Part shown: one piece after another, positions 21,646-35,451 of the stretch
Layout of the letters: each line of letters begins with the position of its first letter
Position numbering within the stretch: position 1 is the first letter of the stretch
From: Thermaerobacter marianensis DSM 12885
Lineage (GTDB): Bacteria; Bacillota; Sulfobacillia; Thermaerobacterales; Thermaerobacteraceae
Direction: 5' to 3'
Length of the DNA: 64,000 nt
Assembly: GCF_000184705.1 (NCBI RefSeq)
Contig: NC_014831.1
Location: 1,364,001 to 1,428,000, forward strand
Position numbers and translations under genes: made by a program
The notes under the pieces: generated by a model
What the model saw: only the letters and a program-made list of their open reading frames with translations
Told to the model about the DNA's origin: nothing
Databases searched by the model: none

Positions 21646-22200
21646 CTATGCCGGTGCGGGGCCGTCCATGTGGTTCAAGAGGCCACCCCGCTCCAGCACC
21701 AGCAGGCCGAGCAACGTCTTGGCGTCCAGAATCTCCCCCCGCTCCGCCATGGCCAGGGCCTCGGCCAGCGGCACCGCCCGCACCTCGATGGCCTCGTCGG
21801 GGTCGGGGTGGCGCTGGCCGGGCTCCAGGTCCTGGGCCAGGAAGATCCACTTGTGCTCGCTGGTGTAGCCGGGGGAGGCGAAGCACCGGGCCAGAAGGCG
21901 CCAGGTGCGGGCCCGCAGTCCCGTCTCCTCCTCCAGTTCCCGCTGGGCCCCGGCCAGGGGGTCTTCGCCAGGCTCCCGGCGCCCGGCGGGCAGTTCCCAC
22001 AGTTCCTGGCCTGCGGGCAGGCGATACTGCCGGACCAGGACGACCTCCCGGGCCGCGGTCACGGCGGCCACCACCACGCTGCCGGGGTGATCGATCCAGT
22101 CCCGCTGGGCCTCCCGGCCGTCGTCCAGGCGGACGGCGCTGCGGCGCAGCTGGAAGACCCGGCCGGTCCACAGGGTCTCGGTGTGCAGCGGTGTCTCCAA
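21646..22200 (-). CDS. NUDIX hydrolase, ADP-ribose pyrophosphatase type
   Basis: A 184-residue NUDIX protein. The box GRREPGEDPLAGAQRELEEETGL (first 20 residues read GRREPGEDPLAGAQRELEEE) binds the metal, and the adjacent VRQYRLPAGQELWELPAG segment is typical of ADP-ribose pyrophosphatases. The TTG start at 22200 with an AAAGGGG site gives the usual length; the ATG at 22335 would add low-complexity residues from another frame context. In Bacillus the related nudF (yqkG) also sits in this neighbourhood near spoIIM, which supports the ADP-ribose call. Confidence 0.88.
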   Translation of the reverse strand: METPLHTETLWTGRVFQLRRSAVRLDDGREAQRDWIDHPGSVVVAAVTAAREVVLVRQYRLPAGQELWELPAGRREPGEDPLAGAQRELEEETGLRARTWRLLARCFASPGYTSEHKWIFLAQDLEPGQRHPDPDEAIEVRAVPLAEALAMAERGEILDAKTLLGLLVLERGGLLNHMDGPAPA

Positions 22201-22217
22201 AGCAGGTCCCCTTTCGT

Positions 22218-23255
22218 CTAGCGGCGGGCCAGGGCCGCCGCCAGGATGCCGGCCGCCAGGCCGGCATGGAAAAAGGGCGGGTCCGCCACCAAATCCCGGC
22301 CCATGCTGACGACCTCCATGGCCTGGCGGCGCCACCAGCGGGCGGCCGCGGCCGTGGCCACCTGCACCGGCACGACGCCGGACCCCGCCGCCAGCCGGCT
22401 CAGGGACCGGGCGGCCGCAGCCGGCAGGGGGCGCGGCAGGGCGAGCCAGACCGGCACCGCCAGCACCCCCAGCACGCCAGCGGTGTGGTGGCTCAGACCC
22501 CGGTGGCGCGGCCGCCGGTCGGCGGCGCTGAGCCGCGGAACCAGGATGGGACGGCCGCCCAGGGCGTGGGCCAGGGTCAGCGTCCAGGCCTGGTCGAGGC
22601 CGGAGTGCCCCAGGGTCTCGCCCGTTCCCAGGATCCCCGGCCCCATGGCCACCACGGCCAGGGCGGCCCCCCGGGCGCGGGCGATGAGCAAGGCCGACGC
22701 CAGGTGAGCGGCCTCGTCGTCACCCCCGAAGGCCTGGCCGGCGGTGATGACGCGCCCGACCCATCCCCGGGCCCGCAGCCGGTCCAGCAACCGGCTCACC
22801 GCCGCCGGCAGGGCGCCGCCGTCGGTCATCACGTACGCCGCGGCGGGGCCGCCCCCGGCCCAGTGCCATCCCGCCAGGACGGCCGCCACCTGGCTGTGGA
22901 GTTCCGCGGCGACGACCGGCATCCCCGCCAGTCCTGCCGGGAGGGGCGCCAGGGCTTCTTCCGCCGCCGGCACGCGCACCTGGGCGGGGGTGTAGCGAAG
23001 CTTCATGGCTTCGCCCCGGCCCGGGGGCGGCACGCGGCCGGGGATGGCGATGACGAAGTCCCACCCGCCCGTCCCTAGGCCCAGGTCGACGGCCGTGGTG
23101 TTGAGCCAGACCCGGTCACCCGGTCTCGCCACCCCCACCAGGTCCGGGAAGGCGATGGCCCGCCGCCACTGGCCGTCCACCTGGACCAGCAGTTCCTGCC
23201 GGTGGGGCGCGGCGGACAACACCCGCTCCACCTGTCCCCAGCGGGCGTGGAGCAC
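22218..23255 (-). CDS. DUF3866 family protein
   Basis: A 345-residue protein of the DUF3866 family found in Firmicutes and actinobacteria, without known function. It shows a beta-rich N-terminal part (LVQVDGQWRRAIAFPDLVG, quoted in part), a KLRYTPAQ motif, the VAAELHSQVAAVLA and YVMTDGGALPAA segments, and a glycine-rich VAMGPGILGTGETLGHSG loop that looks like a ligand-binding turn. The GTG at 23255 is chosen over 23264, which abuts the GGGAGG site. It lies 17 bp upstream of the NUDIX gene, a linkage seen in other Firmicutes. Confidence 0.75.
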   Translation of the reverse strand: MLHARWGQVERVLSAAPHRQELLVQVDGQWRRAIAFPDLVGVARPGDRVWLNTTAVDLGLGTGGWDFVIAIPGRVPPPGRGEAMKLRYTPAQVRVPAAEEALAPLPAGLAGMPVVAAELHSQVAAVLAGWHWAGGGPAAAYVMTDGGALPAAVSRLLDRLRARGWVGRVITAGQAFGGDDEAAHLASALLIARARGAALAVVAMGPGILGTGETLGHSGLDQAWTLTLAHALGGRPILVPRLSAADRRPRHRGLSHHTAGVLGVLAVPVWLALPRPLPAAAARSLSRLAAGSGVVPVQVATAAAARWWRRQAMEVVSMGRDLVADPPFFHAGLAAGILAAALARR

Positions 23256-23303
23256 CCCCTTCACCTCCCGCGGCGGCGAGCCGGGCCCGCCGGGGCGTGC
23301 GGC

Positions 23304-24491: not shown

Positions 24492-25565
24492 TCAACGGCT
24501 CCGCGACGGCATGTGCAGGCGGCGCAACTGGGCGATGTCCCGGATCCGCTGCTCCGCCAGGCGGTCGGCGGCCTCCGCCGTGGTGATCCCCTGCTCCCGC
24601 GCCACGGTCAGGATGGCCTTGACCTTGTCGTAGATGGTCGCGACCCGGGCGAAGGCCCGGTCGCGGTCGTAGCCGCCGGGTGCATACTCGTCGGCCACGT
24701 GGATCACGCCGCCGCCGTTGATCACGTAGTCCGGGGCGTAGAGGATCCCGCGGCGGGCCAGTTCCTCCCCGTGGCGGGGTTCGGCCAGCTGGTTGTTGGC
24801 GGAGCCGGCGACGATGCGGCACCGGAGCCGCGGGATGGTCTGGTCGTTGAGGATCGCCCCCAGGGCGCAGGGGGCGAAGACGTCGCACTCCACGTCATAG
24901 ATGGCCTCGGGCGATACGACCTGGGCACCGAACTCCCGCGCCGCCCGCCGGGCCCGCTCCGGATCGACGTCGGTGACCACCAGCCGGGCCCCGGCCTCGT
25001 GCAACAGCCGGGCCAGGTGGTAGCCCACGTGGCCCATGCCCTGGATGGCCACCACGCGGCCCTGGAAGGATTCGTCGCCGAAGACCTCGCCCAGGCACGC
25101 CTTCATCCCCCGGAAGACGCCATAGGCCGTGGCCGGGGAGGGATCGCCGCTGCGGCCCGGCAGGCCCACCACGTGGGGCGTCTCCATGGCGACGTAGGCC
25201 ATGTCGTCGGTGCCGGTGCCCACGTCTTCGGCGGTGATGTAGCGGCCGCCCAGGGAGTCGACGAACTGGCCGAAGGCGCGGAAGAGCATCTCCGACTTGT
25301 CGCGCCGCGGGTCGCCGATGATCACGCTCTTGCCGCCGCCGAAGTTGAGCCCCATGGCGGCGTTCTTGTAGGTCATGCCGCGGGCCAGGCGCAGGGCGTC
25401 GACGATGGCCTCCTCTTCCGATGCGTAGGGCCACATCCGGCAACCGCCCAGGGCGGGACCCAGGGTGGTGTCGTGGATGGCGATGATCGCCTTGAGCCCC
25501 GTGGCCCGGTCGTAGCAGAAGACCACCTGCTCGTGGCCCATGGCCTCCAGCTTGTCGAACACCAA
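24492..25565 (-). CDS. Leucine/phenylalanine/valine dehydrogenase family protein (paralogue 1)
   Basis: A 357-residue NAD-dependent amino-acid dehydrogenase, closest in motif to leucine dehydrogenase. The catalytic lysines are present in MTYKNAA and in the signature LNFGGGKSVIIGDP, and the catalytic Asp in AEDVGTGTDDM. The dinucleotide fold follows with QGMGHVGYHLARLL and VTDVDPERAR. The enzyme interconverts branched-chain amino acids and 2-oxo acids. The TTG start at 25565 has an AAAGGAG site 8 bases upstream. It lies 33 bp after a clearly related paralogue, so the two look like a tandem duplication in one transcript. Confidence 0.9.
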   Translation of the reverse strand: MVFDKLEAMGHEQVVFCYDRATGLKAIIAIHDTTLGPALGGCRMWPYASEEEAIVDALRLARGMTYKNAAMGLNFGGGKSVIIGDPRRDKSEMLFRAFGQFVDSLGGRYITAEDVGTGTDDMAYVAMETPHVVGLPGRSGDPSPATAYGVFRGMKACLGEVFGDESFQGRVVAIQGMGHVGYHLARLLHEAGARLVVTDVDPERARRAAREFGAQVVSPEAIYDVECDVFAPCALGAILNDQTIPRLRCRIVAGSANNQLAEPRHGEELARRGILYAPDYVINGGGVIHVADEYAPGGYDRDRAFARVATIYDKVKAILTVAREQGITTAEAADRLAEQRIRDIAQLRRLHMPSRSR

Positions 25566-25598
25566 GGCTCTCGCTCCTTTGCCCGTTTCCCGTACCGC

Positions 25599-26711
25599 TC
25601 AGGCGCCGGCCGCCCGGTCGCCGGCGGCCCCAGCCGGCCCCGGCCGGTAGAAGGTCCGCAGCGTCGCCGCCCCGGCCAGCCGCCGCCGCACCATCCACTC
25701 CGCCGCCTCCAGGGTGGTGATGGAGCGCTCCCGGGCCACGCGAAAAATGGCCCGCAGCATGGGGCCGATGGCCGCGGTCTTCCGCATCACCCGGTCCCGG
25801 TCGAAGCCGTGCAGCTCGTCGGCCACCTGGATCAGGCCGCCGGCGTTGATCACGTAATCGGGAGCATAGAGGATCTGCCGTTCCTGGAGGGCGGCGGCAT
25901 GGCGCGGCTCCGCCAGCTGGTTGTTGGCCGCCCCCGCCACCACCCGGCAACGCAACCGGGGAACGGTCTCGTCGTTGATCACCCCACCCAGGGCGCAGGG
26001 TGCGAAGACGTCGCACGGCTGGTCGTAGATGGCGTCCGGCTCCACCACCCGAGCGCCGTGTTGCCGGGCCACCGCCCGGGCGCGGGCGGGATCCACGTCG
26101 GTCACGGTCACCTCGGCCCCCGTCTCGGCCAGCCGGCGCACCAGCTTGCTCCCCACCTTGCCGCAGCCCTGGACCGCTACCCGGCGGCCCTTGAGGTCGC
26201 CGTCCCCGTAGACTTCCTCCAGGCAGGCCTGGATGCCGACGAAGACCCCGTAGGCGGTGGTCTCCGAGCTGTCGCCGCTGCCGCCGTAGGCCTGCGGCAG
26301 GCCTACCAGGTACGGCGTCGCCTGGCGGGCGGCGACGAAGTCCTCCGGATCCGTCCCGGCGTCGGTGCCGGTGATCACCAGCCCGCCCAGGGTATGGACG
26401 AACCGGCCCAAGGCGCGGAAGAGCACCTCGCTCTTGTCCCGCCCCGGGTCGCCCCAGACGACCACCTTGGCTCCGCCGTAGTTGACGCCCGCCAGGGCCG
26501 ACTTGGCGGTCATGCCCTGGCTGAGGCGCAGGGCGTCAAAGACCGCCTCCTCTTCGCTGGCGTAGGGCCACATGCGGCATCCGCCCAGCCCCGGTCCCAG
26601 CGTGGTGTCGTGGATGGCCATGATGGCCTTGAGCCCCGCTGCCGGCTCGTAGCAGAACACCAGCTGGCGATGGCCGCCGGCCGCCATGGCCGCGAAGATG
26701 GACACGCGCAT
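25599..26711 (-). CDS. Leucine/phenylalanine/valine dehydrogenase family protein (paralogue 2)
   Basis: About 370 residues, strongly similar throughout to the downstream paralogue, for example in LKAIMAIHDTTLGPGLGGCRMW and PRLRCRVVAGAANNQLAEPRH (quoted in part). The catalytic residues are kept: Lys in MTAKSALAG, Lys in VNYGGAKVVVWGDP and Asp in GTDAGTDPEDF. The surroundings differ (GGAK instead of GGGK, TDAGT instead of EDVGT), which points to another substrate preference. The start is either ATG 26711 or GTG 26705; the GGGGGG site fits 26705 better, changing only two residues. Its specific amino acid cannot be told from sequence alone. Confidence 0.88.
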   Translation of the reverse strand: MRVSIFAAMAAGGHRQLVFCYEPAAGLKAIMAIHDTTLGPGLGGCRMWPYASEEEAVFDALRLSQGMTAKSALAGVNYGGAKVVVWGDPGRDKSEVLFRALGRFVHTLGGLVITGTDAGTDPEDFVAARQATPYLVGLPQAYGGSGDSSETTAYGVFVGIQACLEEVYGDGDLKGRRVAVQGCGKVGSKLVRRLAETGAEVTVTDVDPARARAVARQHGARVVEPDAIYDQPCDVFAPCALGGVINDETVPRLRCRVVAGAANNQLAEPRHAAALQERQILYAPDYVINAGGLIQVADELHGFDRDRVMRKTAAIGPMLRAIFRVARERSITTLEAAEWMVRRRLAGAATLRTFYRPGPAGAAGDRAAGA

Positions 26712-26870
26712 CCCCCCGTGACGTCTCCCCCGGGTGTTCCCCTCGACAGGATATGGGCCGCCGTGGCGATAGGCGCTCGCCCCGCCAGCCCCGGGCCGGA
26801 AGCGCGGGAGAGGCCCGGCAGGGCCTTCGACCCCGTTCGTCAAGCGGCGCGTACCATATCCCAGTCAAGA

Positions 26871-27872
26871 TTACTCCTTTGCCCAGGAAGATCCTTGTGG
26901 GACGGCGGGCGCGTGGGGGCGCGTGCCCAGGCGATCGAGCCAGCGCAAGGGCGGCAGGGCGTCGATGATCCGGCTGAGGGACGCGAACTCGCCCAGCAGG
27001 TGCAGGGCGATGAGCCCCGCCAGGACAGGCAGGTGGGCCGCCGGGGGGACGAACGCGGCCACCGCCCAGCCGAGGGCGGCACCGAGGGCGTTGCTGCCGG
27101 CATCCCCCAGCATGGCCCGTTCTTCCAGGTCGAGGGGAAGCAGGACCAGGGCCGCCACGGCCAGGGGCAGCAGGGCGAGGGCGGCCGCAGGGGCCAGGGC
27201 GGCCAGGCAAAGCCAGGTGGCGAAGAAGGCCTTGAGGGCCCGGCCGGGGCGCCGGTCCAGCAGATTCATCCCGCCAGCCGCGCCGGCCAGCAGGGCGGCG
27301 GCGATCAACCGCGGGCCGGCGCCGGGTGCCGGGGCGGGGACCAGGACCCAGGCCACAAGGGGAAGGGCCGCCAGCTTGAGGCGCCCGCCGGTCCAGGCGG
27401 CGCCGGGGGCCAGGTGGCCCCGCCAGCCGCGGACGGGCTCGTCCAGCAGGTCGTCCACCAGGCCGACCAGGGCCGTGGCGGCGACCAGGGCCAGGAGAGA
27501 CGGCGCCGCGGCGAACAGGAGCGCCAGAGGGGCCGGCGTGCGCCCGCCGGCGAAAGCGTTGCTCCGCCCGGCGAGGACGGGTTCGGCCGGGGTGACGGGT
27601 CCGGGGACCGGGAGGGAGGCCAAGGCGGTGCCGCCGGCGGCGGGGCCCCCGCCGGCAACGGTGCCGGCCAGGACCGCCCCCAGGGCGGCAGCGGCCAGGG
27701 GCCCGGCCAGAAGGGCCACCCCCAGCCCGGTCACCACCGGCCGGCCGCGATAGTTGGGGCGGACCAGCCGGGCCCGCTGGAGCCGCTGCCCGGTGGCCGC
27801 TGCCAGCATGGCCGTCGCCGCCGCCCCCAGCACCAGGGCGGCCAGCAGCGCCCCGCCCTCTGCCGGCGTCAT
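26871..27872 (-). CDS. MraY/WecA-like glycosyl-1-phosphate transferase family membrane protein
   Basis: A 333-residue polytopic membrane protein resembling the MraY/WecA (glycosyltransferase 4) family, which transfers sugar-1-phosphates to polyprenyl phosphate. Signs are the RPNYRGRPVVTGLG segment near the second helix, the acidic pair in ALVGLVDDLLDE, NLLDRRPGRALKAF and the late AMLGDAGSNALGAALG motif. An Ala/Gly/Pro-rich insert occupies residues ~70-110. The ATG at 27872 overlaps the stop of the GT2 gene (ATGA). Together with GT2, SteA and SteB it suggests an envelope polysaccharide or lipid-linked sugar step, but the substrate is unknown. Confidence 0.8.
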   Translation of the reverse strand: MTPAEGGALLAALVLGAAATAMLAAATGQRLQRARLVRPNYRGRPVVTGLGVALLAGPLAAAALGAVLAGTVAGGGPAAGGTALASLPVPGPVTPAEPVLAGRSNAFAGGRTPAPLALLFAAAPSLLALVAATALVGLVDDLLDEPVRGWRGHLAPGAAWTGGRLKLAALPLVAWVLVPAPAPGAGPRLIAAALLAGAAGGMNLLDRRPGRALKAFFATWLCLAALAPAAALALLPLAVAALVLLPLDLEERAMLGDAGSNALGAALGWAVAAFVPPAAHLPVLAGLIALHLLGEFASLSRIIDALPPLRWLDRLGTRPHAPAVPQGSSWAKE

Positions 27873-28648
27873 GGCGCCACCGCCCTCCGGGGCCCGACGG
27901 GCCGGCCGCTGCGGCGGTGGTAGCCGGCCAGGGTCCGGGCCACATGCCAGAGCTGGTGGCCGCGGTGGACCAGCCCGGACAGGGTCCACCCCGTGACCCG
28001 GTGGGCGATGGCCAGGGGCACCTCCACCACCTCCAGCCCGGCACGCAGGGCGGTCAGGGTCAGCGCCACCTCGATGCCCCACCCCGGCGGGACCGGGTCG
28101 AGCAGGTCGACGATCTCCCGCCGCAGCACCCGCTGGCCCGAGAGGGGGGCCGCCAGCACCCGGCCCCCGAGCCGTGCCACGCCCCAACGGGCCAGCGCGA
28201 CGGCGGCGCCGAAACCGTTGCGGCCGGGGCGCCGGGGCGGGGCGGCGATCAGCATGTCCCCGGCCCCGGCCAGAGCCTGGTCCACCAGCGCGGCCAGGTT
28301 GCGAGCCGATGGCCCCAGGTCGGCGTCGGCGAAGAGCAGCCATGGCGCCGTGGTACAGGCCGCCCCGGCCATCAGGGCCCGCCCCTTGCCGCAGCGCTGG
28401 GAAAGCCGCACCACCCGGGCGCCGGCGGCCCGGGCCGCCGCCGCCGTCCCATCGGTGGACCCGTCGTCCACCACCCACACAGCGACCACGCGGGGGCAAG
28501 CGGCCAGGGCCTCCACCGTGGCCGCCACCGACGCCGCTTCGTTGAACGCGGGGACGACGGCTTCCACGGCCGCCGCCGGCCCGGTGCCGGCGCCGCCCGT
28601 CGCCGTCCCCCGGCCTGCCCGCCCGGCCGTCTCCCGCCGGTCCGTCAC
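27869..28648 (-). CDS. Family 2 glycosyltransferase
   Basis: A 259-residue GT2 enzyme. The nucleotide-binding start VEAVVPAFNEAASVAATVEAL (20 residues quoted: VEAVVPAFNEAASVAATVEA) is followed by VVDDGSTDGT and the metal motif FADADLGPS, with the acceptor-side region PLSGQRVLRREIVDLLDPVP further on. It lacks the long C-terminal membrane part of dolichol-phosphate mannose synthases, but the LVHRGHQLWHVARTL end may associate with the membrane. GTG at 28648 has GGAGG 7 bases upstream and overlaps the steB stop (GTGA). It belongs to the steA-steB-GT2-MraY-like operon. Confidence 0.88.
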   Translation of the reverse strand: MTDRRETAGRAGRGTATGGAGTGPAAAVEAVVPAFNEAASVAATVEALAACPRVVAVWVVDDGSTDGTAAAARAAGARVVRLSQRCGKGRALMAGAACTTAPWLLFADADLGPSARNLAALVDQALAGAGDMLIAAPPRRPGRNGFGAAVALARWGVARLGGRVLAAPLSGQRVLRREIVDLLDPVPPGWGIEVALTLTALRAGLEVVEVPLAIAHRVTGWTLSGLVHRGHQLWHVARTLAGYHRRSGRPVGPRRAVAP

Positions 28649-29517
28649 GGCGCACCTCCCTCCAGGGCCTGCAGCCGGTCGCCTTGCCCGGCCAGGGTGA
28701 GGATCAGCGTCACCTTGCCGGCCGCCGATCCGGCCTCCACCAGCGGCACCCCGGCCCCGGCGTAGACGGCCGCCTGGGGTGCCCCCGGCGGTGCCAAGCC
28801 CGCGACCGTCATCCCCGCCTTGTTCAGGTCCTCCAGCAGCGGTGGCAGGACCGCCTCGGGCCCACCCCCCGCGGCGTGGACCACCACCACGGCGTCGGGG
28901 CGGGCGGGCCCGTCGCCGGGGGGCGGGGTCCACCATAGGCCGCCCACGGCGGCCAGGCCTTCCACCTGGGCCGGGGCATTGACCCCCGCCGGCGCCCCCA
29001 GCGCCTCCACCAGGGTGCCGGCCACCGCCCGGGCCAGGCGCTGGGGTCCCGCACCCGGCATGCCCAGGGCCGCCGCCGCCACCTCCGGCCAGCGGTCATC
29101 CAGCCGGGCCAGGCCGGGGTCGACCACCAGCCGCGCGCCGGGGCGGGCGGCCGCCGCCTGCAGGAGTCGACCGGCCTCTTGGGCCAGGGGGGCGCCGGCG
29201 TCACCCAGGATCACCAGGGCGACGCGGCGGCCGCTCAGCCGCCCCTCCACCGCCAGGGACGCCAGGGCCTGTTCCGCCTGGCCGTACCGGGCCAGCTCGG
29301 CGCTCAGGCGCCGGTTCTCGCGGCGCAAGACCGCCGTGTCCCGGCGCAGCGCGGCGAAGTCCTCCTCCAGGGAGCGGATCAGGGCCTGCTGGCGCTCCAG
29401 CAGGGCCCGGTCGTCCAGCATGCCGGCCCCGATGAAGATGCCGACGCCCAGGGCCAGGAACACCGCCATCAAGGTCAGCAGGTGATAGCGCAGTCCCAGG
29501 GGGCCTGCCCGTCCCAC
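28645..29517 (-). CDS. steB: SteB/MctB family membrane-anchored coiled-coil protein
   Basis: A 290-residue protein of the family called copper transporter MctB in mycobacteria and SteB in corynebacteria. The start YHLLTLMAVFLALGVGIFIGAG is a single N-terminal membrane anchor (20 quoted: YHLLTLMAVFLALGVGIFIG). A coiled coil follows over about residues 38-80 (RALLERQQALIRSLEEDF and onward), then an extracytoplasmic alpha-beta domain. In Corynebacterium SteA and SteB act at the division site. Here steB lies directly after steA, which repeats that pairing. The copper-transport name rests on mycobacterial work and should not be assumed. GTG at 29517 has a GGAGGAGG site. Confidence 0.85.
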   Translation of the reverse strand: MGRAGPLGLRYHLLTLMAVFLALGVGIFIGAGMLDDRALLERQQALIRSLEEDFAALRRDTAVLRRENRRLSAELARYGQAEQALASLAVEGRLSGRRVALVILGDAGAPLAQEAGRLLQAAAARPGARLVVDPGLARLDDRWPEVAAAALGMPGAGPQRLARAVAGTLVEALGAPAGVNAPAQVEGLAAVGGLWWTPPPGDGPARPDAVVVVHAAGGGPEAVLPPLLEDLNKAGMTVAGLAPPGAPQAAVYAGAGVPLVEAGSAAGKVTLILTLAGQGDRLQALEGGAP

Positions 29518-29562
29518 GCCGATGCCTCCTCCATCCTTTGTCCTCCGTCCCGTTGCACCGGC

Positions 29563-30684
29563 TCACCAGCCAAGGGCCACCCGGACGCGGAGCCACACCA
29601 GCTCCAGCCACGTTCGCAACCACGGCGAGACGGCCACCGCCGCCGCCACGGGAACCAGGGCGGCCACCACCAGGTGGAGCAAGTGGCGCCCCGTCACCCG
29701 GGACCGGTAGAGCCGGCTGACGCCCTTGGCGTCCACCAGGTGGGTGCCCACCTTCAGCCGGACCAGCAGCGTGCTGGCCATGCCCGCCCGGCCCTTGTCC
29801 AGGAAGTCCACCAGGTTGGTGTGGGTGCCCACGGCCACCAGCAGGTCGGCCCCGGCCTGGTAAGCCAGCAGCATGGCGGCGTCCTCGCTGGTCCCCGGCG
29901 CCGCGAAGCAGGCCGCCGGGAGGCCCAGGGCCCGCAACCGTTCCTCGCCCGGCGCCCGGCCGTCGGGGTAGGCGTGCACCACCAGCTCCGCCCCGCAGCG
30001 CAGGGCCCGGTCGGACACGCTGTCCATGTCACCGATGATCAGGTCGGGCCGGTAACCCTCGGCCAGCAAGGCGTCGGCGCCGCCGTCGATGCCCACCAGG
30101 ACCGGCCGCACCTCCTCGATGTAGGGCCGGATGGCCGCCAGGTCGTCCCGGTAGGCCGGCCCACGGGCCACCAGCAGCACGGGACGGCCTTGGAGGCGCG
30201 TGCGCAGCGGCGGCAGCTCCCACCGGCCCAGGATCAGGTCCCGCTCCCGGCGCGCCCACTCCAGGGTGTTCTCGAGGAACCGCGCCAGCTCCAGGTCCAG
30301 GTTGGCCCGCGCCTGGGCCAGGCGGTCCTCCACCCGCTGGCGGGTCAGCGGCGTGCCCCGCGCCACCAGCCGGTCGCCGCTCCAGATGGTGCCGTCTTCC
30401 ACCCGCAGGGGGTCGCCGTCGCGCACCCGGTCCAGCAACTCGTCGCCGAGGCCATCCACCACCGGAATCCCGGCTTCCAGCAGGCACGCGGCACCCGCGG
30501 CGGGATAGCGGCCGGACAGGGTTTCCTCGGCGTTGAGCACCGCCCGGACCCCGGCGTCCACCAGGGAGCGCGCGGCCACCTCGTCCATGTCCCGGTGGGC
30601 CACCACGGCGATATCGCCCGGCCGTAAGCGCCGCACCAGGCGCTTGGTGCGCCGGTCGACCCGCGCCGTGCCGGTCACTCGCAT
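29563..30684 (-). CDS. steA: SteA-like cytokinetic ring protein (thiamine pyrophosphokinase-fold)
   Basis: A 373-residue SteA homologue. The N-terminal half (residues ~1-165) holds the RVDRRTKRLVRRLRPGDIAVV and HRDMDEVAARSL segments. The middle is a thiamine-pyrophosphokinase-like domain with GIDGGADALL and DLIIGDMDSVSD. The sequence ends with GTHTNLVDFLDKGRAGMAST and a C-terminal membrane helix near residues 340-360. In Corynebacterium the protein localises to the division ring with SteB; enzymatic kinase activity is not shown. ATG at 30684 is used, as the ATG at 30693 abuts the GGGAGG site. It is the first gene downstream of the spo0A terminator, and I found no clear promoter for it. Confidence 0.88.
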   Translation of the reverse strand: MRVTGTARVDRRTKRLVRRLRPGDIAVVAHRDMDEVAARSLVDAGVRAVLNAEETLSGRYPAAGAACLLEAGIPVVDGLGDELLDRVRDGDPLRVEDGTIWSGDRLVARGTPLTRQRVEDRLAQARANLDLELARFLENTLEWARRERDLILGRWELPPLRTRLQGRPVLLVARGPAYRDDLAAIRPYIEEVRPVLVGIDGGADALLAEGYRPDLIIGDMDSVSDRALRCGAELVVHAYPDGRAPGEERLRALGLPAACFAAPGTSEDAAMLLAYQAGADLLVAVGTHTNLVDFLDKGRAGMASTLLVRLKVGTHLVDAKGVSRLYRSRVTGRHLLHLVVAALVPVAAAVAVSPWLRTWLELVWLRVRVALGW

Positions 30685-30731
30685 GGCTGCCATCCTCCCG
30701 GCTCCCGGTTGAGAAGTTTTCCAAACCGCCC

Positions 30732-30775
30732 AAAAAGAAAACCCTCCGGCGGCGCCGGGCGGGCGCGCCGGAGGG
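30732..30775 (-). terminator. Rho-independent terminator after spo0A
   Basis: On the minus strand a 10-bp perfect stem (CCCTCCGGCG / CGCCGGAGGG) is followed directly by TTTTCTTTTT. It lies about 20 bases after the spo0A stop codon. It is the best T-tailed terminator in the window. Confidence 0.93.
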
Positions 30776-30795: not shown

Positions 30796-31608
30796 TCACT
30801 TCATGTCCATGCGCAGCCGGTCGGCCACCATGGCGATGAATTCGGAGTTGGTGGGCTTGCCGCGGTCGGCGTGCACGGTGTGGCCGAAGAGCCGGTTCAC
30901 CACGTCCATGTTGCCGCGGTTCCAGGCCACCTCGATGGCATGGCGGATGGCCCGTTCCACCCGGCTCGGGGTCGTGTCGTACTTGACGGCGATGGCGGGG
31001 TAGAGCTCCTTGGTCACCGCGCCCAGCAGCTCCACCCGGTGGACCACGCGCAGGATCGCTTCCCGCAGGTAGAAGTAACCCTTGATGTGAGCGGGGATGC
31101 CAATCTGGTGGAGCAGGTTCGTCACCTCGACCTCCAGGTTGCGGTCGCGGGTGGGAGCGGCGGCGCGCCGGACCGCGCGGGTGGACGATCCGGCCACCTG
31201 GCGGATCCGGTCGGCCAGCACGTCCAGGTCGAAAGGCTTCAAAACGAAGTAACTGGCCCCCAGTTCTGCCACGCGGCGGCTGACGGCTTCTTGCCCGAAG
31301 GCGGTCAGCATGACCACCTGGGGGCGGCGAGGCAGGTTCATGGTGGCCAGGGTTTCCAGCACCCCGATGCCGTCCAGGTGGGGCATGATCACGTCCAGCA
31401 GTACCACGTCGGGAGCGGCCGACTGGATGCGCTCCACGACTTCCTGCCCGTCGTGGGCGATGCCGACCAGTTCCATGTCAGGCTGCCGTTCCAGGTAGTC
31501 GGCCAGCAGTTCACAAAATTCCCGGTTGTCGTCGGCGATGAGGACACGGATGGGTGTTGCCGAGGCGGCGGGGGTGGGCTCGGCAACGGCGGTTGCGGCC
31601 TGCACCAT
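30796..31608 (-). CDS. spo0A: Stage 0 sporulation protein A, master response regulator
   Basis: Spo0A, the phosphorelay-fed transcription factor that starts sporulation. The receiver domain (residues ~19-140) has the acidic pocket Asp26/Asp27, the phosphoacceptor Asp72 in LLDVIMP, MLTAFG and VLKPFD. A linker leads to the DNA-binding domain (residues ~160-270) with [12 protein letters not shown], the recognition helix region [15 protein letters not shown] and the end [17 protein letters not shown] at 31608 has an AAAGGAGG site 9 bases upstream and gives 270 residues. It follows spoIVB by 46 bp, as in Bacillus. Two 0A-box-like 7-mers lie ~90-105 bp upstream. Confidence 0.98.
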
Positions 31609-31654
31609 GCGCGTGCTGCCTCCTTTGCTCCCCGGGATCCCCCCATCGTGTTTG

Positions 31655-33148
31655 TCAGGCACTGTGGCAACTCCTGCCGTCACCAGGGGAAAACTCTTCG
31701 ACGATATCCGACATCCGGAACGGCGTGTCTCGACGGGAAGTTGCATCTACAGCGAAACTTCGTGGGCCGTTCCGATTCGTGCGTGGCCCCGAGACGCCAG
31801 CGGCCGGGACCCCCGGAGGAGCCCCGGCCGGCAAGGCGGGTCCTGTCGCGACGGGAGCCGGTTCGTCCAGCCCCGCCGCCTCCACCATCCGCTCCGCCAG
31901 CACGCCGTAACCACGGGTCGTGTCGTTGACGAACACGTGGGTCACCGCCCCGACGAGCCGGCCGTCCTGAAGGATGGGGCTGCCGCTCATCCCCTGGACG
32001 ATGCCGCCGGTGCGGGCGAGCAGGTCGCGATCCGTCACCCGGAGCACCAGGTCCCGCCCGTCCCCTGCCGCGGTCACCCGCTGGATCTCCACATCGAAGA
32101 TCTCCGGTGTCTCGCCGTCCACCACCGTGATGATCTGGGCCGGTCCCGGACGGACCTCCGCGGCCGTCGCCACGGGCACGGAGCGGACCACCGGACCCGG
32201 CCGGGGTTCGTCCAGCAGACGGCCGGCGATGCCCACCGGGGTGTTGCGGTCGATGGTCCCCAGGGCCCGGGCGCCGGGGGCGACGAAGCCGATCTTCTCG
32301 CCCGGATCGCCCCGCCGCGAAGGTTCCACGGCGGTGATGCGGGCGGGGAGGATCCGACCCTCCCCCACGGGCAACGGCACCTGGGTCTCCGGATCCGCCA
32401 CCACGTGGCCGAGAGCGGCGTACCGGCCGCTGTCCGGGTGGTAGAAGGTCAGCGTTCCCACCCCCGCCACCCGGTCGCGCACCCAGATGCCGATGGCGAA
32501 CCGCTGCTGGTCGCGGTTGTAGACGGGGTTCAGGCTGCGGCGGAAGACTTGCTCGCCGCGCCGGACCTCCAGTTCCACCGCCCTGCCCTGGCGACCCGCC
32601 CGGTCGATGAGCTCGACGACCTCGGCATCGCTGTCCACCGCTTCGCCGTCGACCCGCAGGATCAGGTCGCCGGGTCGCAGGCCCGCCTGGCGCGCCGGGT
32701 CCACGGTGCGGCCGTCGTCCAGGGGCACCGGCGCGTAGTCCACCACCAGGACGCCCCGGGCCTGGACCATGACCCCCACGGCCTGGCCCCCGGGGATCAC
32801 CTCCACCCGGGGGACGACCTCCACGGTCACCGGGCGCAGGGGCATCCAGCCGAACAGGCTCATCTCGAGGCGTGCCACCCCCGGCCGCAGGCCCTCCAGG
32901 CTCAGCGGCAGCCGGGTGGTGGAACCGGCCGGACCGCGGGGACCGCCCACGTCCAGCACGCCGGGCGGATCCGCCCGCACGGCCACGGGCAACGGCAGGC
33001 CCGGCCCCAGTTGCCGCACCGCGTCGGGCGTGAGCCGGACGTGAGGGGGAATCGCCACCTGCCAGTGCACGAGCAGCACCGCGACCAGCACGGCCAGGAC
33101 CGCACCGCAGACCCCGGCCTTCCGGACTCGCGCTGGGTGCAAGGGCAT
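31655..33148 (-). CDS. spoIVB: SpoIVB serine protease (stage IV sporulation protein B)
   Basis: SpoIVB is the S55 serine protease, secreted from the forespore, that signals pro-sigma-K processing. Features: one N-terminal membrane/signal segment (residues ~12-28), a PDZ domain (about 150-230, with [16 protein letters not shown]) and the peptidase domain with the histidine in YAALGHVV and the serine in [11 protein letters not shown]. The 497-residue product ends with a tail of ~55 residues not seen in Bacillus, coded by the DNA that also holds the spo0A control region. ATG at 33148 follows AAGGAGGGG closely, so an in-frame TTG two codons later is possible. The order recN-spoIVB-spo0A is as in Bacillus. 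Confidence 0.95.
31697..31713 (-). promoter_or_regulatory. Candidate tandem 0A boxes upstream of spo0A
   Basis: On the minus strand TGTCGGA and CGTCGAA lie in the same orientation 10 bp apart, each matching the 0A box TGTCGAA in 6 of 7 bases. Known Spo0A dimers bind tandem boxes at this spacing. They overlap the 3' end of spoIVB and lie 90-105 bp before the spo0A start. Inferred, not demonstrated. Confidence 0.45.
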
Positions 33149-33628: not shown

Positions 33629-35359
33629 TCAGCCCGCCCGCCGGGCATCCCGGGCGCGCTCCAGGAGCAGCCGCGCCGCGTCCGTCCCCTGCTGGCCCGG
33701 GCCGGTGCCCAGCATGCGCGCTAGCTCGCGCAGCCGGTCGTCGCCCGTCAGCAGCCGGATGCGGGTGCGGGTGCGGCCGCCCCGGGTCTCCTTGCTCACG
33801 GCCAGGTGCCGGTCGGCCAGGGCGCTGATGGGCGCCAGGTGGGTGACGCACAGGACCTGGCGCGTGCGGGCCAGCAGCGCCAGCCGCTGGCCGACGGCCC
33901 AGGCCGTCTCGCCGCCGACGCCGGTGTCCACCTCGTCGAAGATCACCGTGGGCACCTCGCCGGCGGCCACGTGCAGGCTGCGCAGGGCCAGCATCACCCG
34001 GGACCGCTCGCCGCCCGACGCCGCGCGCGCCAGCGGCCGCGGCGGCTCGCCTGGATTGGGGGCCAGGAGGAACTCGACCCGGTCGACGCCCTTTTCGGTC
34101 AACCGCACCGGCCCGCCCGGCCAGGGGACGCCGGCGGGATCGGGCACGGTGGTGAAGGCCACGGAGAGGCTGGCACCGGGCATGCCGAGGGCCGCCAGCA
34201 CGGGGCGGAGGTCCTCCGCCAGCCGTTCCGCGGCGCGCCGGCGCGCCTCATGCAACTGGCAGGCCAGTTCACCCGCTTCTTCCAGGATGCGTCGCCGCTC
34301 CGCCTCCAGCGCGGCCACCTGTTCCTCCGCACCCTCGAGCTCCGCCAGGCGCCGGGCGACCTGCTGGCGGTAGGCCAGGATCTCGTCCACGGAATCGCCG
34401 TATTTGCGCTTGAGGTCTTGCAGCCGCGCCAGGCGCTCTTCCACCTGGGCCAGGGCCGCCGGATCGTGCTCCACGGCCTCCGCCCGGGCCCGCACGTCCC
34501 GCGCGGCCTCCTCCACCTCGTATTCCAGCCCGCGCACGCGCTGGGCCAGGTCCTGCAGGTCGGGATCGATGGCCGCGGCGTCCTCCAGGGCCCGGGCCGC
34601 CGCGGCCAGCCGGTCCGCGGCGGACGACCCGGCGGCGTACAGCATCTCGTAGGCGTCGCCCAGCTGGCGGGCCAGGCGCTCGGCGCCCGCCAGCCGCTGC
34701 CGGCGCGCTGCCAGTTCCTCCTCCTCGCCGGGTGCCAGGCGTGCCTGGTCGATCTCGTCCATCTGGAAACGAAGCAGGTCCAGCTCCCGCTGGCGCTCCC
34801 GCGGGTCCGCCGCCAGGGCGCGCAGCCGTGCCGCCACGGACCGCAGCGCCGCGACCCGTTCCGCCAGGCGGGCGCGCAGCCCGGCGACCGCGTCCCCCGC
34901 CAGGGCGTCCAGCCACTCCAGCTGTTTGTCGGGGTCGAGCAGCGTCTGGTTGTCGCCCTGACCGTGGACCTCCACCAGCAGCGACCCCACCTGCCGCAGC
35001 AGGGAGGTGGTCACGGGCCGCCCGTTGATGCGCGCGGTGCTGCGCCCCGCCCGGGTGATCTCCCGGCTCAGGATCAGCCGGCCGTCGTCGTCGGGCGCCA
35101 GGCCGGCCTCCTCCAGCAAGGCCGCCAGCGCGGGAGGCGGCCCCGGATCCAGGACGAACACGGCGTCGACCCGGCCGGCGGGCGCCCCCTCGCGGACCCG
35201 GTCGGGGCTGGCCCGCTCGCCCAGGGCCAGGCTGAGGGCGTCGATGAGGATGGACTTGCCCGCACCCGTCTCGCCGGTCAGCAGGTTCAGACCGGGGCCG
35301 AACTCGACCTGGGCCGCATCGATCAGGGCGATGTTCTCGATCACCAGTTCTGCCAGCAC
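33629..35359 (-). CDS. recN: DNA repair protein RecN
   Basis: RecN, an SMC-like ATPase acting early at double-strand breaks. The N-terminal head starts ELVIENIALIDAAQVEF with Walker A GETGAGKS. Two coiled-coil arms span residues ~150-360. The C-terminal head carries the signature ARAASGGERSRVMLALR, Walker B TVIFDEVDTGVGG and the QVLCVTHLAPISALADRHL segment (partial). GTG at 35359 has the GGGAGG site; the GTG at 35374 lacks one. Length 576 residues, normal. It lies between argR and spoIVB as in Bacillus. Confidence 0.97.
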   Translation of the reverse strand: MLAELVIENIALIDAAQVEFGPGLNLLTGETGAGKSILIDALSLALGERASPDRVREGAPAGRVDAVFVLDPGPPPALAALLEEAGLAPDDDGRLILSREITRAGRSTARINGRPVTTSLLRQVGSLLVEVHGQGDNQTLLDPDKQLEWLDALAGDAVAGLRARLAERVAALRSVAARLRALAADPRERQRELDLLRFQMDEIDQARLAPGEEEELAARRQRLAGAERLARQLGDAYEMLYAAGSSAADRLAAAARALEDAAAIDPDLQDLAQRVRGLEYEVEEAARDVRARAEAVEHDPAALAQVEERLARLQDLKRKYGDSVDEILAYRQQVARRLAELEGAEEQVAALEAERRRILEEAGELACQLHEARRRAAERLAEDLRPVLAALGMPGASLSVAFTTVPDPAGVPWPGGPVRLTEKGVDRVEFLLAPNPGEPPRPLARAASGGERSRVMLALRSLHVAAGEVPTVIFDEVDTGVGGETAWAVGQRLALLARTRQVLCVTHLAPISALADRHLAVSKETRGGRTRTRIRLLTGDDRLRELARMLGTGPGQQGTDAARLLLERARDARRAG

Positions 35360-35451
35360 CCGGTTCCCTCCCACCCTTATTCCCCGGCTCCCGGCGCGTT
35401 GGGCCCCGCCGCGGCGAACATCGCCCGCCGGCTGCCGCGCCGGCGCGGGGG

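Follow-up and report, generated by a model that had tools for sequence, protein, structure and literature searches.

SteA-SteB genes behind spo0A in Thermaerobacter marianensis belong to a widely co-inherited cassette with two putative sugar-lipid enzymes

The window analysed here is a stretch of 64,000 nucleotides from Thermaerobacter marianensis DSM 12885 (contig NC_014831.1, positions 1,364,001 to 1,428,000). The element under study is a run of four genes within it: steA, steB, a GT2 glycosyltransferase gene and a gene for an MraY-like membrane protein, here named MraYl. A preliminary description, made from the letters alone, had noted this run directly behind the sporulation gene spo0A and had suggested a septal envelope function that may matter for the asymmetric septum. 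The four genes were located on the minus strand where that description had placed them, each as an open frame with a start and a stop codon, and the operon-like character of the cassette was borne out. Several other gene names used for the window, DUF3866 among them, are provisional names read from the sequence.

29563..30693, minus strand: steA, 376 amino acids (aa); cytoplasmic protein with a TPK-like nucleotide pocket and a C-terminal membrane helix
28645..29517, minus strand: steB, 290 aa, GTG start; N-terminal membrane helix, coiled coil and extracytoplasmic domain
27869..28648, minus strand: GT2 glycosyltransferase, 259 aa, GTG start; PF00535 at 76.4 bits
26871..27872, minus strand: MraYl, MraY-like membrane protein, 333 aa

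Overlaps of 4 nt were found at steB/GT2 (GTGA) and at GT2/MraYl (ATGA), as had been described, but not at steA/steB, which are 45 nt apart. Genome comparisons showed that the four genes are inherited together, mostly as one operon-like run. What is new is that SteA is coupled almost perfectly to two sugar-lipid enzymes that have not been characterised, to both in Bacillota and to MraYl in Actinomycetota.

The identities of SteA and SteB were examined by profile and structure comparison. SteA scored 526.7 bits against the equivalog model NF040608 (cut-off 150) and 61.5 bits against PF12555, and matched the solved SteA chain 9hmy with an E-value of 6.7e-77. The TPK-like nucleotide-pocket motifs DGGAD, GDMDS and TSED, invariant in 19/19 aligned Bacillota SteA sequences, are present in the window protein. 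SteB scored 84.6 bits against PF11382 (cut-off 25.6). When the window SteB alone was used as a phmmer query, no solved SteB was matched; the SteB family profile does match solved SteB, helped by the actinobacterial rows that it includes. The predicted SteB model, with a predicted local distance difference test (pLDDT) score of 86.7, gave Z values of 16.1-17.6 to five solved SteB entries from C. glutamicum and M. tuberculosis (8au6, Z 17.6, root-mean-square deviation (rmsd) 4.7 over 215; 9hle, Z 16.8, rmsd 3.3 over 229), and the next unrelated row stood at Z 10.3. By profile and by solved structures, these are the same two families as SteA-SteB of Corynebacterium and Mycobacterium (Cg1603-Cg1604; Rv1697-Rv1698), the activator of RipA, where the two genes are likewise adjacent behind recN. 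In contrast to those loci, the window has spoIVB and spo0A between recN and steA and adds GT2 and MraYl after steB, and no RipA-type coiled-coil NlpC/P60 protein was found in its genome. The homology of SteA and SteB supports the septal-envelope role put forward in the preliminary description. According to excerpts of the published reports, SteA and SteB have been described in Corynebacterium (PMC6705760), SteB (Cg1604) activates RipA (PMC9897464), SteB releases the autoinhibition of a coiled-coil hydrolase while SteA carries a phosphonucleotide pocket, C. glutamicum SteA is stabilised by uridine or guanosine diphosphate (UDP/GDP; PMC12977500), and mycobacterial SteA acts on MtrB without SteB (PMC12338722).

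The GT2 protein reached the gathering score of PF00535; its DxD aspartates, D108 and D110, are invariant, and an SGQR signature is invariant in 23/23 rows of alignment A3. The nearest named models were AglJ (62.2 bits) and glucosyl-3-phosphoglycerate synthase, GpgS (57.4 bits), and the nearest solved chains were GpgS and dolichol-phosphate mannose synthase. Although enzymes of the AglJ, GpgS and dolichol-phosphate sugar synthase type are thus its best matches, the cassette GT2 lies far below the two equivalog cut-offs (325 and 262, respectively) and carries a signature of its own (SGQR together with HR..Q). As a separate observation, the Cellulomonas genome of locus L099 (G300) holds a strong GT2-family match (E 3e-67; C5:5664-6362) within an open frame of 667 residues.

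MraYl scored 19.2 bits (in a scan of the longer open frame) and 22.7 bits against PF00953 (Glycos_transf_4), below the gathering cut-off of 27. Its AlphaFold2 model (pLDDT 85.5) matched MraY (9zno) with Z 21.2 and rmsd 3.6 over 246 and DPAGT1 (6bw6) with Z 20.9, and the next unrelated row had Z 4.8. Four aspartates, D140, D141, D206 and D257, are invariant in 32/32 MraYl rows of alignment A2. They include the catalytic DD + D triad (D140, D141 and D257), with equivalence taken from the profile-PDB alignment; N203 and D206, the equivalents of MraY N190 and D193, are kept. R208, P209, R211, K214 and M254 are also invariant in 32/32 rows. These comparisons show that MraYl has the fold of the polyprenyl-phosphate phosphotransferases (MraY/WecA/DPAGT1), is distinct among them and has preserved the catalytic aspartates. 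Where MraYl departs from that family is in the nucleotide site. With residue roles taken from an excerpt of PMC6606608, the uracil-pocket residues G194, L195, D196 and F262 of A. aeolicus MraY were found to correspond to L (R in the window), R, P and M in MraYl, and the window protein reads NLLDRRPGRALK and MLGD at these positions. An invariant motif of the RPGR type stands in place of the uridine pocket: DGLDG of loop C becomes D-x-R-P-G-R, and Phe-Met-Gly-Asp of loop D becomes Met-Leu-Gly-Asp. The loop E histidine motif is absent from MraYl, and the protein ends before the equivalent of the last MraY helix. Elsewhere the same genome encodes an MraY-type protein (DGLDG, FMGD, HHH) and a WecA-type protein (DGLDG, FMGD, HLHH), both of which have the loop E histidines. 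Because these two proteins are separate and the MraYl motifs differ from theirs, MraYl is a third, distinct class, and the idea that it is a second MraY was rejected on its motifs. In the MraYl tree the window protein fell on the actinobacterial side and the protein of L110 on the Bacillota side; the branches are long, and this placement was not used as evidence. MraYl represents a family of MraY-fold proteins, unstudied until now and present in two phyla, in which the nucleotide pocket has been rebuilt.

Conservation of the gene order was assessed in 80 named loci obtained from a scan with the SteA alignment, 36 on the Bacillota side (one, L064, labelled Armatimonadetes) and 44 from Actinomycetota. 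Order was counted where at least 3.5 kb lay downstream, which was too little in 7/36 and 11/44 loci, respectively. In the 29 testable Bacillota-side loci, SteA was followed by GT2 in 29, by MraYl in 29 and by SteB in 27, with all in order in 27/29. The possibility that the order occurs only in this genome therefore fails clearly. Co-occurrence was measured in a draw of 299 Bacillota genomes; B. subtilis was one of 14 control genomes. SteA exceeded its cut-off in 188, MraYl was found at 1e-20 in 186, and GT2 at 1e-45 in 187. SteA and MraYl were both present in 185 genomes, with SteA only in 3, MraYl only in 1 and neither in 110 (phi coefficient 0.97); for SteA and GT2 the counts were 184, 4, 3 and 108 in the same order (phi 0.95), and these values, like the actinobacterial one given below, are inflated by shared descent. 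Five genomes from four Bacillota families (G115, G169, G261, G282 and G290) are without SteA, MraYl and GT2 together while members of their families keep all three. A neighbourhood formed by chance was rejected on the conserved positions and the co-occurrence, the recurrence being far beyond chance. The observation in the preliminary description is thus confirmed and much more general than its author knew, while the interpretation is partly supported.

Distances were compared where places were listed (150/188 SteA, 150/186 MraYl, and 99 Spo0A in genomes with a listed SteA). Both SteA and MraYl had listed places in 132 genomes; with 3 on different contigs left out, the distance from SteA downstream to MraYl was 0.66-2.75 kb, and the strand the same, in 129/129. 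Relocation was studied in 32 genomes that were chosen rather than drawn, 22 with a short SteA-MraYl gap and 10 others. SteB was present in 32/32 and lay elsewhere in 16/32, leaving SteA-GT2-MraYl contiguous, and six genomes with a SteA-SteB-MraYl operon carry GT2 elsewhere. Such retention of relocated SteB and GT2 argues for a functional link more strongly than gene order does by itself. In the scanned stretches (L144-L155), relocated SteB was repeatedly seen near genes for coaE, a lytic transglycosylase, a QRPTase-like protein and a solute-binding protein, and so has a wall-lysis enzyme among its neighbours there.

In Actinomycetota the order is tlyA-recN-steA-steB-MraYl, without spo0A. SteB follows SteA in 33/33 testable loci and MraYl does so in 32/33; upstream of SteA, RecN was found in 36/36 testable named loci and Spo0A in 0/36. 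Among 197 Actinomycetota genomes, 81 had both SteA and MraYl, 6 SteA only, 2 MraYl only and 108 neither (phi 0.92). Actinomycetota SteA forms one side of a tree branch (99/92), as vertical descent would give. Lineages that look deep-branching (L112-L115 and L122) show SteA-SteB-GT2 and other glycosyltransferases, then MraYl, PyrG, M20, DUF3866 and Nudix; the extra genes between SteB and MraYl in deep lineages are of the GT-B, GT2 and PMT_2 types. In the same block, several Actinomycetota also encode a protein of about 770 residues without a Pfam match (L113 11128-13422; L105 15710-18040).

In 30/32 testable named Actinomycetota loci, the 2.5 kb downstream of MraYl contain a MurJ-family gene; in these loci, L074 (12210-14775) among them, this divergent flippase gene stands directly 3' of MraYl. 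Because the MurJ model also matches overlapping wrong frames in GC-rich loci, eight frames were checked against Pfam, and PF03023 was above cut-off in 8/8. The neighbour shares this family with the MurJ lipid II flippase but is below the equivalog cut-off in 2/2 proteins scanned (167 versus 235.6 bits), as a divergent paralogue. In 32 Bacillota stretches, the window included, a MurJ-family gene was seen in 0/32. A GT-B glycosyltransferase usually comes after the MurJ-family gene in Actinomycetota, and some lineages add a PMT_2-type protein. These actinobacterial neighbours point to a lipid-linked glycan. They also bear on the question of whether MraYl is an enzyme at all. MraYl might instead be a paralogue without catalytic activity, binding lipid or serving as a scaffold that keeps polyprenyl phosphate or SteB in place at the septum, with GT2 modifying something unrelated; the missing histidine loop and uridine pocket and the early end of the protein would fit such a role. 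However, two phyla show no variation in four catalytic-site aspartates, in N203 or in a new set of charged residues (R208, R211 and K214), and dead enzymes do not usually have such constancy; a MurJ-like flippase gene also adjoins MraYl in actinobacteria. We regard a scaffold role as rather unlikely.

The cassette sits in a wider conserved block. On the minus strand of the window the order, read 5' to 3', is Dxs, TlyA, NadK, ArgR, RecN, SpoIVB, Spo0A, SteA, SteB, GT2 and MraYl, and then two Glu/Leu/Phe/Val-type dehydrogenases, further genes, Nudix, and SpoIIM-like, alanine-dehydrogenase-like and XerD-like proteins. Three flanking genes recur in other genomes as follows.

33629..35374, minus strand: recN (PF02463), a flank common to the actinobacterial version of the block
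22218..23264, minus strand: DUF3866-type gene, which by gene order comes next in the downstream block conserved in most Bacillota loci; the search model was built from the window protein
21646..22335, minus strand: Nudix hydrolase, with Nudix matches below cut-off; part of a downstream block that is, by gene order, common with Actinomycetota

Such a block raises the possibility that only the neighbourhood is conserved, that is, that housekeeping genes stand in an ancestral order from recN through nudix to xerD and that SteAB and the sugar enzymes are functionally unlinked. The conservation of the wider tlyA-recN-...-nudix-xerD block across both phyla is in keeping with this. Yet the genes share presence and absence beyond their order (phi 0.95-0.97), the five genomes described above are without the three genes together, and genomes in which SteB or GT2 has left the operon still have it. 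Mere neighbourhood thus appears quite unlikely as the whole explanation. The long order tlyA-recN-steA-steB-...-nudix-xerD was itself observed in Bacillota and Actinomycetota alike (window 17853-43000; loci L031-L110), with spoIVB, spo0A and SpoIIM only on the Bacillota side of it in the loci examined.

The relation of the cassette to spo0A was then considered. The genes and the predicted element upstream of steA are as follows.

30732..30775, minus strand: terminator-like hairpin and T run in the spo0A/steA gap
30796..31746, minus strand: spo0A, upstream neighbour; TIGR02875 at 391.6 bits
31655..33226, minus strand: spoIVB, upstream neighbour; TIGR02860 at 398.3 bits

In excerpts of an mBio paper of 2026 (PMC12977500), steAB behind spo0A in Clostridia and a possible sporulation role are already in print; the section on spo0A adjacency does not mention the GT2 or MraY-like genes. 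Our literature search for sugar genes beside SteAB or spo0A, whose coverage excluded most subscription papers, found no report. That printed hint of SteAB as a restricted, sporulation-linked case in Bacillota is corrected by the finding of SteA over cut-off in 188/299 sampled genomes. The adjacency itself is real: Spo0A lies 0-600 bp upstream of SteA in 74/85 same-contig, same-strand Bacillota cases and 0.9-21 kb upstream in the other 11 (14 genomes with the two on different contigs were left out). By position, then, steA does lie directly behind spo0A, as first described; by transcription it probably does not, as the 102-nt gap contains the hairpin and T run listed above. Both genes were available in 30 loci, with the gap too short in 2/30, and terminator-like structures were found in 26/28, compared with 9.1 expected from dinucleotide shuffles. 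For the window gap the fold z-score was only -1.6, because the region is GC-rich. A promoter scan between 24 and 36 kb in the window found no sigma-70-type site. Upstream of steA there was no excess of Spo0A boxes (B. subtilis consensus), with exact boxes in 0/28 loci (0.4 expected) and boxes with one mismatch in 7/28 (11.0 expected). Because of the predicted terminator and the lack of a box excess, spo0A is probably a separate transcription unit and the cassette probably its own.

These data bear on a sporulation-specific module, in which SteAB, GT2 and MraYl would act at the asymmetric septum under Spo0A, as proposed in the preliminary description and also suggested in excerpts of PMC12977500. 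Besides the close spacing, 183/188 SteA genomes also have Spo0A, which favours such a module. Across the 299 Bacillota genomes, in which Spo0A was over cut-off in 257, 183 had both proteins, 5 SteA only, 74 Spo0A only and 37 neither. The cassette thus tracks itself and not Spo0A (phi 0.97 versus 0.43), with 74/257 Spo0A genomes without SteA and either gene lost without the other; no SteA match was found in the control genome of B. subtilis. Natural deletions go both ways. In the window's own class, L133 has ArgR-RecN-SteA-SteB-GT2-MraYl with no SpoIVB or Spo0A there, in a genome without a Spo0A match over cut-off. L135 keeps the cassette and SpoIVB but no Spo0A. Peptostreptococcus canis (L043), of a genus not known to sporulate, has RecN-SteA-SteB-GT2-MraYl. 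Conversely, 3 of the 5 genomes with the triple loss keep Spo0A. On this co-occurrence, the spo0A losses, the Actinomycetota loci with SteA-SteB-MraYl and no spo0A, the terminator-like structures and the lack of a box excess, a sporulation-specific role was rejected as very unlikely, and the proposed special role at the asymmetric septum is not supported. The position behind spo0A is real but looks like ancestral gene order rather than a sporulation function.

Taken together, these data lead us to propose, with about even confidence, that steA, steB, GT2 and MraYl are a single functional module of ancient origin, serving the maturation of the septal wall and the separation of daughter cells. 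The module is probably old, independent of spo0A and not specific to sporulation. As the best reading we infer a lipid-linked sugar pathway coupled to SteAB-controlled splitting of the septal wall. MraYl would load polyprenyl phosphate with a phospho-sugar or similar group from a donor other than UDP-N-acetylmuramoyl (MurNAc)-pentapeptide, and GT2, which most resembles polyprenyl-phosphate-sugar synthases, would make or extend a polyprenyl-linked sugar. A flippase, for which the MurJ-like neighbour in actinobacteria is a candidate, might then move this sugar outwards. SteA, with the pocket that binds UDP/GDP in Corynebacterium, may act through SteB to link the state of the pathway with a peptidoglycan hydrolase of the coiled-coil type. 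The lipid-linked sugars would serve an envelope component that is produced at the septum, a step to which SteA-SteB would tie wall splitting.

In a more specific version, SteA would sense, from the cytoplasm, a lipid-linked glycan pathway dedicated to the septum. UDP, GDP or uridine monophosphate released by GT2 or MraYl would fill the TPK-like pocket, and SteB would unlock a coiled-coil wall hydrolase only once the septal glycan is made; this checkpoint would predate the split of Bacillota and Actinomycetota, and in Mycobacteriales the switch would have outlasted the glycan enzymes. We consider this version speculative and unlikely as it stands. In mycobacteria and corynebacteria SteAB acts as a switch for cell separation, with a cytoplasmic ligand that is not yet settled. 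Two enzymes can now be named as co-inherited with it, both in nearly all Bacillota that have SteA and MraYl also in most SteA-bearing actinobacteria, and the question of what SteA senses thereby becomes directly testable.

Several observations, in addition to the shared descent behind the phi values, weigh against the proposed module. GT2 is absent at the locus in 32/33 testable named Actinomycetota loci. Mycobacteriales-like loci (L138-L140) keep SteAB without MraYl, so SteAB can work without it; their order, TlyA-RecN-SteA-SteB-PyrG-Nudix-XerD, is presumably also that of M. tuberculosis. The reverse is seen in two large actinobacterial genomes (L111 and L141), where a low-scoring MraYl stands directly behind RecN with no SteAB there. 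As for the hydrolase, the only NlpC/P60 protein found in the T. marianensis genome was without an obvious coiled coil by eye, and a coiled-coil M23 protein (L159) is only a candidate partner. Finally, MctB/SteB was dispensable for separation in mycobacteria in one study, according to an excerpt of PMC12338722.

One further feature was observed downstream of the cassette. The two Glu/Leu/Phe/Val-type dehydrogenase genes of the window (24492-26843) are arranged in tandem directly 3' of MraYl, and a dehydrogenase of the same type also lies 3' of MraYl in L133, the same-class genome without Spo0A.

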